Assembly: GCA_021773815.1 (NCBI GenBank)
Contig: JAJFJS010000143.1
Location: forward strand, 1-64,000
Length of the DNA: 64,000 nt
Reading direction: 5' to 3'
From: Gammaproteobacteria bacterium
GTDB taxonomy: Bacteria; Pseudomonadota; Gammaproteobacteria; Steroidobacterales; GCA-2729495
A program made the position numbers and the translations under genes. Below the pieces are notes generated by a model. It saw only the letters and a list, made by a program, of their open reading frames with translations, made no database searches and was not told the DNA's origin. The first letter of the stretch is position 1. Each line of letters begins with the position of its first letter. Positions 14,053 through 51,707 of this stretch are shown piece by piece.

Positions 14053-14861
14053 GCAACGTTTCGCGTTGACGGATTGACCAGCCCGCCGACAAGCTGGCGT
14101 CGCGGCCTCCACGTGGCCTTGATCGGCGTTACCGTATACATCGCCTTCCTGGCAACCAGCATATAGCAACTGGCAAAAGGCGCGTGCTGACGCCAGACCT
14201 GAAAAGCGGCGGAAATACTCAGGCGGACCGCGCGGAAAAACCGGTTCGTGCGACGGACCAGGTCATGTTTTCGATAGGCGTCGGTGACGCGATTGCCGGG
14301 CGCGCGCCGCTTACGCAGCCTGCGTGATCGACGCAGCACCGGAGCCGGGAAATAGTGAAACGACGAGTGATCGACCGAAAAATTCAGCAGGTGCAGCCAG
14401 TCGCGTAGCCGATACTCCGAGATCAGACGTTGGAGTCCCGGCGGGAATCGCCGCCGCGACAGCAGATGTCGCAGGCCCCAGAAACTGACCGGGTTGAACC
14501 CCAAAATTACGATATGCCCATCCGATCGCAATACGCGATTCAGTTCACGCAAAACGCCGTGCGGATCCTCGTGAGCCTCGAGAACATGCGGCAACAGGAC
14601 GATGTCGATCGAGTCGTTCGCGATGCCGAGGCAGTTCGACGCCATGACGATGTCGACACCGTCGCCGCCCCCCGCGCCGACCACGGCCGCTCGCTTGGTG
14701 CGCGCATACTGCGGAAACTCATCACTGCCCCAGGCGCCGATCTGCAGGTATTGGTCACCAAAAATACTTTCCAGCGCCGGACGAACCCGAGCGCCTTCCT
14801 CGCGCAACAGGGCACGTCCGGTTGGGGTATTCAGCCAATCGATATAGCTCATCGGTGCCAA
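14049..14861 (-). CDS. SAM-dependent methyltransferase (YafS-like)
   Basis: A class I methyltransferase of about 270 residues. A degenerate SAM-binding region ([17 protein letters not shown]), a following [19 protein letters not shown] motif and the [19 protein letters not shown] strand are typical of the Methyltransf_11 family. E. coli has yafS in the same place beside rnhA-dnaQ, which supports the assignment. The substrate is unknown. The TTG at 14861 has AAGAGAG six bases upstream; an in-frame ATG at 14852 is an alternative with a worse spacing. The C-terminal basic stretch ([15 protein letters not shown]) could contact RNA or membranes. Transcription diverges from fabI. Confidence 0.8.
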
Positions 14862-45859: not shown

Positions 45860-46894
45860 ATGACCAGACTTACTCCGGATCGTCTCGATCCCGAGGCCGC
45901 AACGCCCGCGGCAAACCCGCCCACGCATCGGCTCTTTATTCGCCACCGGGACCTGCTCGACCGGCTGGGCCTGGACGCCGACGCCGGCGTCATCACACCG
46001 GATTTCCCGTTGCGCGCACCGCATGCGTTCGTCGATCGTATCCGGCCCGCAGCACCCGACGATCCGTTGCTGCGACAGATCCTGCCGACGCCTGCGGAAT
46101 TCATGGCTGTCGCCGGCTATACCACCGATCCGGTCGGCGATCTGGCCAGCACCATAGCGCCCGGCGTGCTCAAGAAGTATGCCGGGCGCGCACTATTGAT
46201 AGTGACCGGCGCCTGCGCCATTCACTGCCGCTATTGTTTTCGCCGGGCCTACCCGTATGCGAGCGGATCGATTCGGCAACGGGACTTTTCTGCGGCGCTG
46301 GCCGCACTCACCGCGGACTCGACCATCGAGGAAATTATCCTGAGCGGCGGCGATCCGTTGATGCTGTCGAACGACAGGCTGGCCCCGCTCATCACGGCGC
46401 TGTCAGGCATTGACCACATCCGGCGCATTCGCATTCATACGCGCATTCCGGTCGTCATGCCCGATCGCATCGACACGGGACTTCTCGAATTGATCGAAGC
46501 CTGCCCGCTGCCGGTTACCGTGGTCATTCACTGCAACCATGAAAACGAAATCGACGCTGTCGTTGCAGCTAAAATCCGGGCGCTGCGCTCGCGGACCGCG
46601 TTTGTCCTGAATCAGTCCGTATTATTGCGCGGCATCAATGACTCGGTCGAATCCCTGACGGCGCTGAGCCTGCGCCTGTTCGACATCGGCGTCCTGCCCT
46701 ACTACCTCCACCAACTCGACCCGGTGGCGGGCGCCGCGCACTTTCAGGTCGATGATCGCCTGGCCACGGAACTGATCACGGCCGTTGCCGCGCGGCTTCC
46801 GGGATATCTCGTGCCACGACTGGTCCGGGAGATACCCGGTGCCGACGCCAAGACGCCGTTGCATCACGTACGCGACGAAACGCTCCGAGGCTAG
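45860..46894 (+). CDS. epmB: EF-P (R)-beta-lysine synthase EpmB (lysine 2,3-aminomutase family)
   Basis: A 344-residue radical-SAM and PLP enzyme turning (S)-lysine into (R)-beta-lysine for EF-P. The radical-SAM cluster is [15 protein letters not shown] near residue 120, and [15 protein letters not shown] is the glycine-rich SAM motif. The C-terminal [17 protein letters not shown] and [18 protein letters not shown] segments fit the family. It is divergent from efp. No hydroxylase (EpmC) was seen, which is dispensable. Confidence 0.95.
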
Positions 46895-47004: not shown

Positions 47005-47071
47005 ACATAATCTACTCATCACTTCTACATAATAATTGTCGCCCCACATAATCAGAAACGGGTCACATAAT
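47005..47071. promoter_or_regulatory. Four ACATAAT direct repeats upstream of the fimX-like gene
   Basis: ACATAAT occurs at 47005, 47027, 47046 and 47065 (start-to-start 22, 19 and 19 bp), three of the copies followed by C. This is roughly two helical turns, so bound proteins would sit on one DNA face. The array lies 83-149 bp before the TTG start. It is an iteron-like operator candidate; the binding protein is unknown. Confidence 0.65.
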
Positions 47072-47103
47072 CCCCTCGCGCCGCCGCTAGAATTCCCTAG
47101 CGC

Positions 47104-47119
47104 GGGAGATCGATCTCCC
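47104..47119. promoter_or_regulatory. Perfect 16-bp palindrome in the fimX-like leader
   Basis: GGGAGATCGATCTCCC is a fully self-complementary 16-mer, 34 bases before the start codon and downstream of the ACATAAT array. It may be an operator or an mRNA stem near the ribosome site. The remainder of the 259-bp gap after epmB has no visible gene. Confidence 0.5.
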
Positions 47120-47153: not shown

Positions 47154-49238
47154 TTGCGCGATTCAGTTGGTGTGCCCCTCGTTGTCTTTACCGGTCACGA
47201 TGACAATCTGTCGGTAATCAACAATATCCTGAGGCAGGCCGGGCACCCGGTACACTGTTCGCGCGTCGAGCGACTCAATGAACTCGACGAGATGTTGCGA
47301 ACGCAGCGCCCCGAGTTGCTGCTCTATTTCGCCGACGAGAGACTCGATGACCTGCCAACCGTCGTCGAGCGGCTGTCCCGGCAGAATCCGACGCCACCGC
47401 TGCTGCTGGTACGCGGCCGAATCGACGAGCAAACCATCGCCGAAGCAATGGAATCAGGCGCGCGCGACGTCGTCTCACTGACTCACAAGAATCGCTTTCA
47501 GGCTGTAATCAAACGCGAACTTGCGGCGTTCCGACTCAAGGTGGCGCTCGGCGGCGTGATCTCGTCCGCACGGCAATACCGTAATGAACTCAAGACCCTG
47601 ATGCAGGGATCAGCCGAGGCTATTGCCGACGTACAGGAAGGTATCATCGTCGCCAACAACCCGACCTGGGCAGAGTTATTCGGCTACAGCGATGCGCAGG
47701 CGTTGATCAATACCCCGTTCATGGACCACTGTAGCGAATCCGACCAACCGATGATCAAGGGCGCACTTGTCGCATGCCTGAAGCAGCGATGGGATGGTAC
47801 GCCGTTGAAGATCTCCGGCGTACACGCCGACGGATCCCGGGTTCCGGTGGAAGTCAGTCTCGAACGCGTGACGATCGAGGGCGATCCTGCCGTACGCGTC
47901 GTCGTCGCGGGCGAAGCCGTGACCGAGCAAACTCCCGAGGAAATGCTCGAACAGGCGCTGTACAAGGATCCGGCAACCGGCTTTTATCACCGCCATTTCT
48001 TTATCGAGAAAGCCGAGGAACGATTGGCGCAGGCCCTTGCGGGTGGGGTACGGGCCGCCGTCTATATTCGGCCGGACAACTTTGCGCGTGTCCATGATGA
48101 CATCGGCATGCTCGCCACCGAACACCTGTTGACGCGGATTGCCGCCCTGCTGAAAGACTTCATGCAGCCTCCGGATTTGTACGGACGCTTCGGCGGCACG
48201 ATGTTTATCGCCTTGCTCGAACGCGGCACGATGCAGGACGTGGAGACATGGGCGGAGCAACTGCGCAAGACGATCTCAAGCCATGTCTTCGAAGTCGACA
48301 ACCAGTCGACATCATTGACGTGCACGATCGGTGTCGTGGAAGTGTCACCGGACTCACCATCGACGGCGACGTTGCTGAACGAGGTCGAGAAGGCGTGCCG
48401 AATCGGCCGGGATGCCGGGGGCAACCGAGTACAACTCAGCGATGACACCAGCGCGACGCAGGCGATTCGCGCCTCCGATGCGCTATGGGTGCCGCGTCTG
48501 CGCAACGCGCTGATGCAGAATCGGCTGCGGCTCGTCCACCAGCCTATTACCGGACTGACCGAAGAGGTCGAAGGACTCTTCGACACACGCGTGCAGATGG
48601 TCGACGAGATGGGCGACATCGTGCTCGCCGGCGAGTTTATTCCGGCCGCGCAGCGTGCGGGCATGATCAAGAGCGTGGATCGATGGGTCATCGGTGCCTC
48701 GCTGTCCTTCTGCAAGGCGCGCAACCCCGACCTGGTCTTCGTCAGGCTGTCCGCAGATTCCATCAACGACGACACCCTGCTTGACTGGCTCGAAGCGCGC
48801 TTGCAGCGTTCCGGCGTCAACCCGGCGAAGCTCTGTTTCCAGGTCACCGAAGAAACCGCGGCACAGTACCTGAAGCAAACCAAGACCATTGCCGAAGCGC
48901 TGCGGGCCAAGGGACTGCGTTTCGCGGTCGACCACCTCGGCGCCGGCCGGGATCCCGAACAGGTCCTGAACCATGTGCCGATGGACTTCATGAAAATCGA
49001 CGGCAGCCTGATGCAGGGCCTGCACCGCGAACCGGCCGCGCAGAAAACGGTCGGTGACCTGACCCGCGCGGCCACCGGGCTCGGCATCCGGACGATTGCC
49101 GAGCGCGTCGAGGACGCCAATACCATGGCCGTCCTCTGGCAAATAGGCATTAGCCTGATTCAGGGCAACTATATCCAGATGCAGGGCGTGGTTCTCGAGG
49201 ACACCCAGAGCGTGCAGACGCTCGCATCCGGTCAGTAG
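47154..49238 (+). CDS. fimX: FimX-like REC-PAS-GGDEF-EAL protein with degenerate catalytic motifs
   Basis: A 694-residue cytosolic protein with the domain order and almost exact length of Pseudomonas FimX (691). It has a receiver (about 1-125; Phe in the phospho-Asp position of LLLYFAD), PAS (about 140-250), GGDEF (about 265-425; signature is RFGGTMF, no GGDEF) and EAL (about 440-690). The EAL motif reads DTR, aligned through DTRVQM against EVLLRM, so neither diguanylate cyclase nor phosphodiesterase activity is expected. The C-terminal IAERVED and QGNYIQ remain. FimX is a c-di-GMP effector for type IV pilus assembly; the usual Arg after EAL is Gln here, so ligand binding needs testing. The TTG start has AAGGAAA seven bases upstream. 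Confidence 0.85.
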   Translation: MRDSVGVPLVVFTGHDDNLSVINNILRQAGHPVHCSRVERLNELDEMLRTQRPELLLYFADERLDDLPTVVERLSRQNPTPPLLLVRGRIDEQTIAEAMESGARDVVSLTHKNRFQAVIKRELAAFRLKVALGGVISSARQYRNELKTLMQGSAEAIADVQEGIIVANNPTWAELFGYSDAQALINTPFMDHCSESDQPMIKGALVACLKQRWDGTPLKISGVHADGSRVPVEVSLERVTIEGDPAVRVVVAGEAVTEQTPEEMLEQALYKDPATGFYHRHFFIEKAEERLAQALAGGVRAAVYIRPDNFARVHDDIGMLATEHLLTRIAALLKDFMQPPDLYGRFGGTMFIALLERGTMQDVETWAEQLRKTISSHVFEVDNQSTSLTCTIGVVEVSPDSPSTATLLNEVEKACRIGRDAGGNRVQLSDDTSATQAIRASDALWVPRLRNALMQNRLRLVHQPITGLTEEVEGLFDTRVQMVDEMGDIVLAGEFIPAAQRAGMIKSVDRWVIGASLSFCKARNPDLVFVRLSADSINDDTLLDWLEARLQRSGVNPAKLCFQVTEETAAQYLKQTKTIAEALRAKGLRFAVDHLGAGRDPEQVLNHVPMDFMKIDGSLMQGLHREPAAQKTVGDLTRAATGLGIRTIAERVEDANTMAVLWQIGISLIQGNYIQMQGVVLEDTQSVQTLASGQ

Positions 49239-49388
49239 AAAGGTGAATCGGATCACAGTCTTGACATAAGTCGATGGTAGATCATCGCGGTACCGGGAAA
49301 ACGAGACACGTTTGGTTTACGGCGCGCACCGGGCATGATTTCTTGGGCTTTGCGAAGAAATGATGAGCGCCATCCGGGGACTGACAAT

Positions 49389-51707
49389 ATGGGACGGGCA
49401 AACAGCAGATCGATTCTGAGCCAGAGCATCGCAGAGGTGCTGGGCACGGCAGTGCCGTCCGGCACCCCCGAATCACGTCCCGGACCGCTGCGCAAATCGC
49501 TGATCTACGCCAGCATGGCGCTACTCATCATCAATCCGGCCCAGGTCAACGCCATCGGACTCGGGGAGATGCAGGTCAATTCGCGGATCGGTCAGCCACT
49601 CGACGCCACCGTACCGGTTACCCTGGGATCGGGCGAATCCCTGCCGAAAGACTGTGTCGCACCGACACGCGGTAACGGCGGTCTGGGCACGCCGGCCAAT
49701 GTAAACGTCAGCACCCCGGCGGCGACCCAACCGGGTACCTACAGTCTGCGCGTCACATCGGCCAATGCCCTGCACGAGCCGATGTACGAAATTTCACTGG
49801 TTATCGATTGCCCCGGAACACCCGTACTGCTGCGCCAATACGTCCTGATGCTCGACCTGCCCGGTATGCCGGCGGCAACGACGACCCGCGGCGACACCCT
49901 GTCCGTGCCGGTCACCGGCGCGATTAGAACTGCGACACCGCTCCCGAGCCGCGCCGTCGCTGCAGCGACGCGCGGCAACTCCGTCCGTCGCTCCGCTCGC
50001 ACCCTGCAACGGACGCGCACTCCGATCCCGGCCGGTCAGCCCTACCGGGTCAGCGAAGGCGACACCCTGTCGACGATCGCCGCACGAATCGACGGCCGGC
50101 TCGCCAATACCACCTGGCAGGTTGCGAACCGGATTTTCGAGGCAAATCCAAACGCATTCATCCGCGGCAATCCGGACATGATCAAGCTCGGTTCGCTGAT
50201 CGAGATACCCTCGGTCCCCGAACTTGCCGAACTCGGCGGGAGCCGCACACCCGCCATGCCGCCGGCTGCCGCGACGCGAGCGACCATGCGCGCCACGACA
50301 TCCGAACCATCGTTGCCGGCGCCGCAACCCGCGCCGATGCCCGCACCGGTCGTCGCGCCGGCCACGACCGGTCGAGCCGAAAGTTTTGCCACGCAACCGG
50401 AGCCGGTCGTGCCGACGCTGCCGACCGACATGCCTGTTGCCGATACCGCGTTTGTCGAGACGCCCGCACCATTCATCGACGCGCAACCGCAACCGACGCC
50501 GTTCGAGGCTGACGCCGTCGCCAGCGACGCGGTCGCCATCAGCCCATTCATAGACGAGCAACCCGTCGCGCCGACCGCGACTGCCGGTTCGCCCGAGACC
50601 GCGATGCCGGCGCCAGTTGCCGCAGCGCCCGCCGCCCCGACGATCACTGCAACGGCGGCGCCGGTCGTCGAAACCGAGTCGGTCAATCCGCTGCTCGCGA
50701 TCCTCGTCGGCATATTGCTCGGTGCACTGGCCAGTTTTGTGACGCTGAGACGACGCCTGGTCGATACCCTGACCGCACTGCTCCGACGCCGCTCACCCGA
50801 CGCCGATGCCGAACCGTCGGCTCGCGGCAGCAACCGGGTCGGCTCGTTCGATACCTCGGTAGCCGATTCCGCATTCGCGACACGGCAGCAGACATCCGAA
50901 GCGCTGCCGATCAGCGCCCCGGCCGAGAGCACCTATATCGTCGAGACGTCCGCAGCCGAACAGACCGGCAGTCTCGACGCATTCGACGACAGCGCTGCGG
51001 ATATCGAGGCGGACCTCGAGGCAGACTTGTTCGGGATCGAAGCCGACGAGAATGTCGACAACGACATGCTCGCGATGCTGTTCGACGACGATCCGGCCGC
51101 CGCCGGTCCCGATTGCTTCGACCCGACCGGCGGCGTCGATGCGGATGCGACCGGCACGTTTGCCGGGCCAACCGCCGAGATGCCGATTCAGCCGCGTCCG
51201 GATGAGGGCTTTGATCCGACCGCCGAACTGGCCGCCGAATTTAACGATGAGATGTTCGATCCGACCACTGAAATGCCGTCTGGCCAGCCCGACTTCGTGA
51301 TCGATGAGGACGCCGAGGCCTCAGCGCGGCATCAGGACGATATCGAAACCTCGCTGCGTGACGCGCTCGACAACACGATCGAAGATATCGATCCCGACAA
51401 AATGTTTGCGACATCGAGCAATCTCTCCGATGACTTCGACGACGCATCACCGACCGCCGAGGCTCCGGAAGCCACGATCGGCGATCTGAATGCGCTGCAG
51501 TCCTATGATGACGAGGACGGCCTGTCGGAGACGCTGCACGAAGCGCTGTCTCTGCTCGAGCGCGATTTCGAGGAAGAATTCACGGCGAGCCAGATTCTCG
51601 AGCGCAGCGAGATCAACCGGTCACTGGAAAAGACCCGCAGCGACGATGAACCCCGAGCCGCCGATGACGAGCATTCCGCGACGCCCACCCGCAAGGTCAG
51701 CAGCTAA
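49389..51707 (+). CDS. Second FimV-like LysM membrane protein
   Basis: A protein of about 772 residues (frame open to 49335; the ATG at 49389 has GGGGA eight bases upstream). It contains a hydrophobic signal/anchor (LIYASMALLIINPAQVNA), a FimV-type N-domain (IGLGEMQVNSRIGQPLDATVPV to LLRQYVLMLDLPG) with two Cys, and LysM (YRVSEGDTLSTIAARIDGR). A Pro/Ala-rich linker leads to one membrane helix near residue 450 (NPLLAILVGILLGALASFVTL) and an acidic cytoplasmic tail rich in Asp-Pro-Thr motifs. The C-terminal TPR domain of true FimV is missing. It is 150 bp after the fimX-like gene on the same strand. A role at the pole with pili is inferred only. Confidence 0.8.
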   Translation: MGRANSRSILSQSIAEVLGTAVPSGTPESRPGPLRKSLIYASMALLIINPAQVNAIGLGEMQVNSRIGQPLDATVPVTLGSGESLPKDCVAPTRGNGGLGTPANVNVSTPAATQPGTYSLRVTSANALHEPMYEISLVIDCPGTPVLLRQYVLMLDLPGMPAATTTRGDTLSVPVTGAIRTATPLPSRAVAAATRGNSVRRSARTLQRTRTPIPAGQPYRVSEGDTLSTIAARIDGRLANTTWQVANRIFEANPNAFIRGNPDMIKLGSLIEIPSVPELAELGGSRTPAMPPAAATRATMRATTSEPSLPAPQPAPMPAPVVAPATTGRAESFATQPEPVVPTLPTDMPVADTAFVETPAPFIDAQPQPTPFEADAVASDAVAISPFIDEQPVAPTATAGSPETAMPAPVAAAPAAPTITATAAPVVETESVNPLLAILVGILLGALASFVTLRRRLVDTLTALLRRRSPDADAEPSARGSNRVGSFDTSVADSAFATRQQTSEALPISAPAESTYIVETSAAEQTGSLDAFDDSAADIEADLEADLFGIEADENVDNDMLAMLFDDDPAAAGPDCFDPTGGVDADATGTFAGPTAEMPIQPRPDEGFDPTAELAAEFNDEMFDPTTEMPSGQPDFVIDEDAEASARHQDDIETSLRDALDNTIEDIDPDKMFATSSNLSDDFDDASPTAEAPEATIGDLNALQSYDDEDGLSETLHEALSLLERDFEEEFTASQILERSEINRSLEKTRSDDEPRAADDEHSATPTRKVSS

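Follow-up and report, generated by a model that had tools for sequence, protein, structure and literature searches.

Which protein reads the row of short direct repeats in front of the fimX-like gene in this gammaproteobacterial DNA, and what would it do there? The window, the whole stretch of DNA that was analysed, is 64 kb long. A first-pass annotation of its letters had reported four exact copies of ACATAAT, with starts spaced 22, 19 and 19 bp within 67 bp, and had suggested that they may define a dedicated control of the fimX-like and fimV-like genes. The transcription of fimX has hardly been studied, and our literature search found no described regulator of a fimX promoter in the type IV pilus sense. 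In Pseudomonas aeruginosa, the level and the polar distribution of FimX correlate with the type of motility and with nutrients (PMC5515259).

The repeat array and its neighbourhood

All four copies were confirmed with the reported spacings. They lie head to tail on one strand:

47005..47011, + strand: unit R1, ACATAAT, exact match; other g1, g2 and g5 genomes have a counterpart, with the next unit 22 or 15 bp away
47027..47033, + strand: unit R2, ACATAAT, exact match
47046..47052, + strand: unit R3, ACATAAT (CACATAAT), exact match; most relatives have [TC]CACATAA[TC]
47065..47071, + strand: unit R4, exact match, contained in GTCACATAAT at 47062-47071; located at the -35 position

On both strands of the window, ACATAAT does not occur beyond these four places, and shuffled sequence carries on average 2.6 copies, dispersed window-wide. 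Among all 7-mers of the real window, ACATAAT alone reaches four copies in 67 bp. In a simulation of 60 Markov-1 windows of 64 kb, no 7-mer cluster of such density was obtained. Genome-wide counts, here and below, were made by pattern and profile searches. The 3.87 Mb assembly has no further match to the pattern ACATAAT-N(0-30)-ACATAAT and no match at all to its reversed control. The spacing had also been taken to place one protein on one face of the DNA; this is true roughly but not exactly, since 19 bp corresponds to about 1.8 and 22 bp to about 2.1 helical turns.

The array is located in the 259-bp gap between epmB and fimX, 110 bp after the end of epmB. The adjacent genes are the following:

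45860..46894, + strand: epmB (EF-P beta-lysylation), the upstream neighbour; TIGR03821 above cut-off
47154..49238, + strand: fimX orthologue, the target gene, 694 aa; degenerate REC-PAS-GGDEF-EAL protein with Pfam PAS, GGDEF and EAL matches
49335..51707, + strand: fimV-like gene, the downstream neighbour; FimV_N at E 2.5e-8; in relatives not always beside fimX

The best solved relative of the fimX product is FimX 4j40 (E 1e-53), and its GGDEF motif is degenerate and reads GGTMF. Farther out, efp and epmA are found upstream, and parC follows the FimV-like gene.

Conservation in the family and dedication to fimX

Of 40 relatives, 37 have a FimX orthologue. ACATAA-type units precede fimX in all 35 upstream regions of the family (f1) that were read, our own included; these regions come from nine genera, and the identity of the FimX proteins goes down to 46%. 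The first-pass annotation had asked whether copies and spacing are kept in close relatives, and both are indeed conserved upstream of the fimX orthologues. Counted from the last unit, the usual positions are -38, -19 and 0, and the unit corresponding to R2, about 38 bp upstream of the last, is the positionally most constant in the family. A fourth unit is present in most genomes of the own genus, g2 and g5. Two units remain in two g6 genomes; in g7 and g9, the first unit remains, and the last one or two have decayed. The main register across the family is 19 bp, with 15, 18, 20 or 22 bp in some genomes, and the self-similarity of the profile peaks at lag 19 alone. The unit hexamers carry 1.43 bits per column versus 0.63 elsewhere (0 of 100,000 permutations). 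In the family alignment of the R4 position, GTCACA is conserved at 32/34 per base.

Of 40 family genomes, 27 contain the exact pattern ACATAA-N13-ACATAA, nearly always upstream of fimX; G016 and G048 each have one recognised place away from fimX. The reversed control had three matches in total. When a profile built from the last two units is searched against the family, its top match in most genomes is the site at fimX. Similar clusters do not occur at random in the own or related genomes, a point on which the first-pass annotation had wanted a check. Among 206 genomes from other families of the order, the same profile had no match at E 0.005, under strict filters that can miss weak forms. Hence, the array is a family trait.

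Both neighbours of fimX offer a test of which gene the array serves. In g5, g7, g9 and G019, epmB is missing at this place, and the array lies between the divergent efp and fimX genes. Control of epmB was rejected on these grounds, as the array remains with fimX where epmB is missing. In G003 (L006 3620-5071), parC comes directly after fimX with no fimV-like gene between, and the array is largely intact. The proposed control of fimV is therefore not upheld, whereas that of the fimX-like gene is borne out by a conserved array and by exact pairs that nearly all precede fimX. As the array stays with fimX where epmB or fimV is missing, it belongs to fimX. We regard it as almost certain that this is a real, conserved operator array dedicated to fimX.

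As a separate observation, the loci of g5, g7, g9 and G019 that lack epmB between efp and fimX (L018, L019, L021-L026) have kept efp and epmA. The loss of epmB at these fimX loci suggests a changed modification of EF-P.

A wider regulon was considered and rejected. Single GTCACATAAT sites elsewhere are mostly intragenic and near control counts, and weaker profile matches are scattered, save one recurring site near a bactofilin gene. This site, CCAGAC-N4-GTCACACC (CCGACCAGGGTCACATC in L097), resembles the last fimX unit; it is found some 60 bp upstream of a bactofilin-type gene and is oriented on the other strand. Three genomes from two genera carry it (G012, G004 and G020; L095 2458, L096 1901 and L097 2012). 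ExeA-like ATPase genes are also preceded by GTCACATAAT in two genomes of g6 (G020 and G043; L172 and L168), again on the opposite strand.

The fimX promoter and the predicted activator function

The last unit stands at a fixed distance from a predicted promoter element:

47088..47093, + strand: predicted -10 box TAGAAT, 26 bp downstream of where GTCACATAAT begins

In 35 of 35 family genomes, the -10 box follows the last unit at an offset of 26 or 27 bp. No acceptable -35 hexamer is found 16-18 bp before TAGAAT, and the promoter listing has no promoter ending here; the -35 position of the fimX promoter is taken up by the last repeat. Transcription is predicted to start near 47100, so that the leader would measure about 54 nt and contain AAGGAA as ribosome-binding site ahead of the TTG start codon. 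Head-to-tail asymmetric blocks that end at -35, together with a conserved -10 box and no -35 box, are what an activator site usually looks like. Since the promoter lacks a -35 box and has a conserved -10 box, an activator site is the most likely interpretation, and we predict with good confidence that the fimX array acts in this way.

A repressor bound to the same operator could instead block the -35 region in front of fimX. The -35 position falls within the last unit, and the LytTR protein CoxC, which has three direct repeats over -35, represses (PMC11347149). However, there is no -35 hexamer here to block, and the -10 box is conserved, a combination typical of activator-dependent promoters, which makes repression rather unlikely.

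Four further explanations are a chance cluster, replication iterons, tandem -10 boxes and an RNA element. A chance cluster is contradicted by the simulation and by the conservation in the family. Plasmid iterons do show a spacing of 19-22 bp, and the array had been called iteron-like. In the replication sense this name does not apply: none of the neighbours epmA, efp, epmB, fimX, fimV and parC is a replication gene, and the array is linked to the promoter and its -10 box. CATAAT resembles a -10 box, but the units of relatives often end with C or G (ACATAAC, ACATAAG), whereby the key T is lost. As for an RNA element, there is no Rfam match, and the predicted transcript would begin downstream of the units. 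Taken together, these four explanations are scarcely credible.

Two further features were seen around the predicted start. The -10 box is flanked by CGCTAG/CTAGCG arms, and a perfect 16-bp palindrome, GGGAGATCGATCTCCC, occupies 47104-47119 in the predicted fimX leader. The hairpin of this palindrome is not kept in the two same-genus relatives that were folded.

Candidate binding proteins and known systems

LytTR: LytTR operators consist of 9-bp direct repeats 10-13 bp apart, which corresponds to a period of 19-22 bp, and three repeats are used by CoxC/RcoM (PMC11347149). The array repeats within this range, with 22, 19 and 19 bp here and mainly 19 bp in the family. Almost every genome with an intact array encodes an orthologue of AlgR, whose gene follows that of an AlgZ-like kinase. 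In the complete genomes G006 and G013, whose arrays are intact, the AlgR orthologue is the sole LytTR protein. One or two intact units are left in G009, G016, G018 and G005, where no close AlgR was found, and in G023, where AlgR has diverged; these absence calls rest on draft assemblies, and the correlation of AlgR with the array is confounded by shared ancestry. In G005 (92% complete), no LytTR protein was detected and two units are kept, and in G011, AlgR is present and the array has decayed. AlgR of P. aeruginosa binds CCGTTCGTC (PMC4064291), a site that is not matched by the units, which read ACATAAT. Further ACATAAT-type targets, as expected if AlgR binds, were not found. As the main binder, AlgR is a tentative candidate.

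CRP/Vfr: The last unit overlaps a second putative site:

47052..47067, + strand: CRP/Vfr-like 16-mer TCAGA-AACGGG-TCACA; overlaps R4, centre about -40.5 from the predicted start

The 16-mer has eight of ten matches to TGTGA-N6-TCACA and three mismatches to a Vfr consensus, for which 0.23 matches are expected per window. In relatives, the last unit has 7-9 of 10 matches with a perfect right half, and it is the best or near-best site in the fimX upstream region. Its centre at -40.5 or -41.5 from the predicted start agrees with the class II position (about -41.5). Judged by its letters, GA-N6-TCACA looks like a class II CRP site but for a C at the preferred G. The only other match in the window to this Vfr consensus, at 14530-14550, is weak (three mismatches).

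The whole array could be composed of CRP/Vfr sites, with a class II site at about -41 and weaker half-sites upstream. Almost every f1 promoter retains GA-N6-TCACA at the last unit, including those with a decayed ACATAAT, and in g2, g5 and g7 the preceding unit scores 9/10. The CRP/Vfr orthologue is conserved; its recognition helix has the R-E-x-x-x-R form, with SREMAGR in the six proteins read, and a domain match is also present in G000 and G006. In the genome, TGTGA-N6-TCACA occurs six times versus zero for the reversed pattern. Against this composition, the left half has a conserved C (29 of 34) where CRP/Vfr needs a G. A mutant of the fimU Vfr site with TGAGC changed to TCAGC, plus a change in the second half-site, lost binding (PMC8787478). 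The upstream units read [TG]ACATAA without the TC of TCACA, dimers at a 19-bp spacing would crowd each other, and the TAA after TCACA is conserved beyond the needs of CRP. An array made up of CRP/Vfr sites is thus improbable. An involvement of CRP/Vfr in some form is conceivable, as a candidate that is compatible with AlgR binding.

AlgR with CRP/Vfr: At the fimU pilus promoter of P. aeruginosa, AlgR and Vfr bind simultaneously (PMC8787478). Given this precedent, a fimX promoter that combines AlgR and Vfr is a natural hypothesis, no more. We hold with moderate confidence that the array is a fimX operator whose likeliest binder is the AlgR orthologue, possibly together with the CRP/Vfr orthologue. 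Each ACATAA(T/C) block would be one asymmetric recognition element, and three or four such elements would be arranged head to tail in a 19-bp register (15-22 bp). In a promoter whose -10 box is of the TAGAAT type, the last element would stand in for the -35 box. A protein on the direct repeats, for which the candidate is the AlgR orthologue (a REC-LytTR response regulator with AlgZ/FimS as partner), would sit cooperatively, contact RNA polymerase and switch on fimX, the putative gene for a c-di-GMP-linked pilus assembly factor; both activation and cooperativity are inferred. The CRP/Vfr orthologue may act with AlgR on the site at about -41.

OmpR/PhoB: A response regulator of this family could occupy tandem sites, as OmpR does at ompF, with the last site at -35. 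Asymmetric direct repeats ending at -35 fit the family in general, and at the last unit, TC.GA and TCACA are 11 bp apart. The OmpR/PhoB family reads half-sites 10-11 bp apart, but self-similarity of the profile is absent at lag 10 or 11 and appears at lag 19 alone. We consider such a binder distinctly unlikely.

AraC/XylS: These activators bind half-sites that form direct repeats, spaced about 21 bp and overlapping the -35 region, and an activator of this kind on the fimX repeats would suit the layout. The complete genome G013, with an intact array, encodes two AraC-type proteins, neither of which has an orthologue in G010 or G000, and G018 is without any AraC-type protein. Because no AraC-family orthologue is common to G013, G010 and G000 and none is present in G018, an AraC binder is taken as excluded and is very improbable at best.

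Family-private regulator: A regulator private to the family could read the three or four ACATAA units with fimX as its only strong target. This would be a one-gene pilus regulon with a site sequence undescribed for known regulator families, and we consider it doubtful. A literature search for the 7-mer ACATAAT returned unrelated papers alone. ACATAAT is a site sequence undescribed for tandem direct-repeat operators, which are themselves a known kind.

A conserved operator before fimX alone offers a handle on how the family couples pilus assembly to environmental signals, and the 80-bp array region could serve directly as bait to identify the regulator. Should AlgR and Vfr prove to be the binders, the c-di-GMP effector FimX would join the surface-sensing circuit that is known from fimU.

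Among known systems, the iterons of plasmid replication are alike in being direct repeats of 19-22 bp. The array differs from them in that it is chromosomal and promoter-tied, has no replication gene nearby and conserves the unit core alone. The F1-F2-F3 sites of OmpR at ompF and the PhoB boxes are likewise activator sites of tandem direct repeats, the last of which reaches or takes the place of the -35 box, but their 10-11 bp half-site period is absent from the fimX array. LytTR operators (RcoM-1 and CoxC; the canonical pairs of AgrA and YpdB) share with it a short asymmetric block per unit and the head-to-tail order. They also share the period of 19-22 bp, the three units and a last unit near or over -35 (PMC11347149). 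Here, in contrast, ACATAAT is unlike TTCNNGCA and the other LytTR sites described so far, and up to four units are present. The fimU-pilVWXY1Y2E promoter of P. aeruginosa is, like that of fimX, a type IV pilus promoter in which AlgR and CRP/Vfr sites are combined (PMC8787478), the sites at fimX being candidates only. Both of its regulators, AlgR and Vfr, have orthologues here. At fimX, unlike at fimU, the target is fimX itself, the site sequences are others, and the candidate sites overlap instead of being separate.
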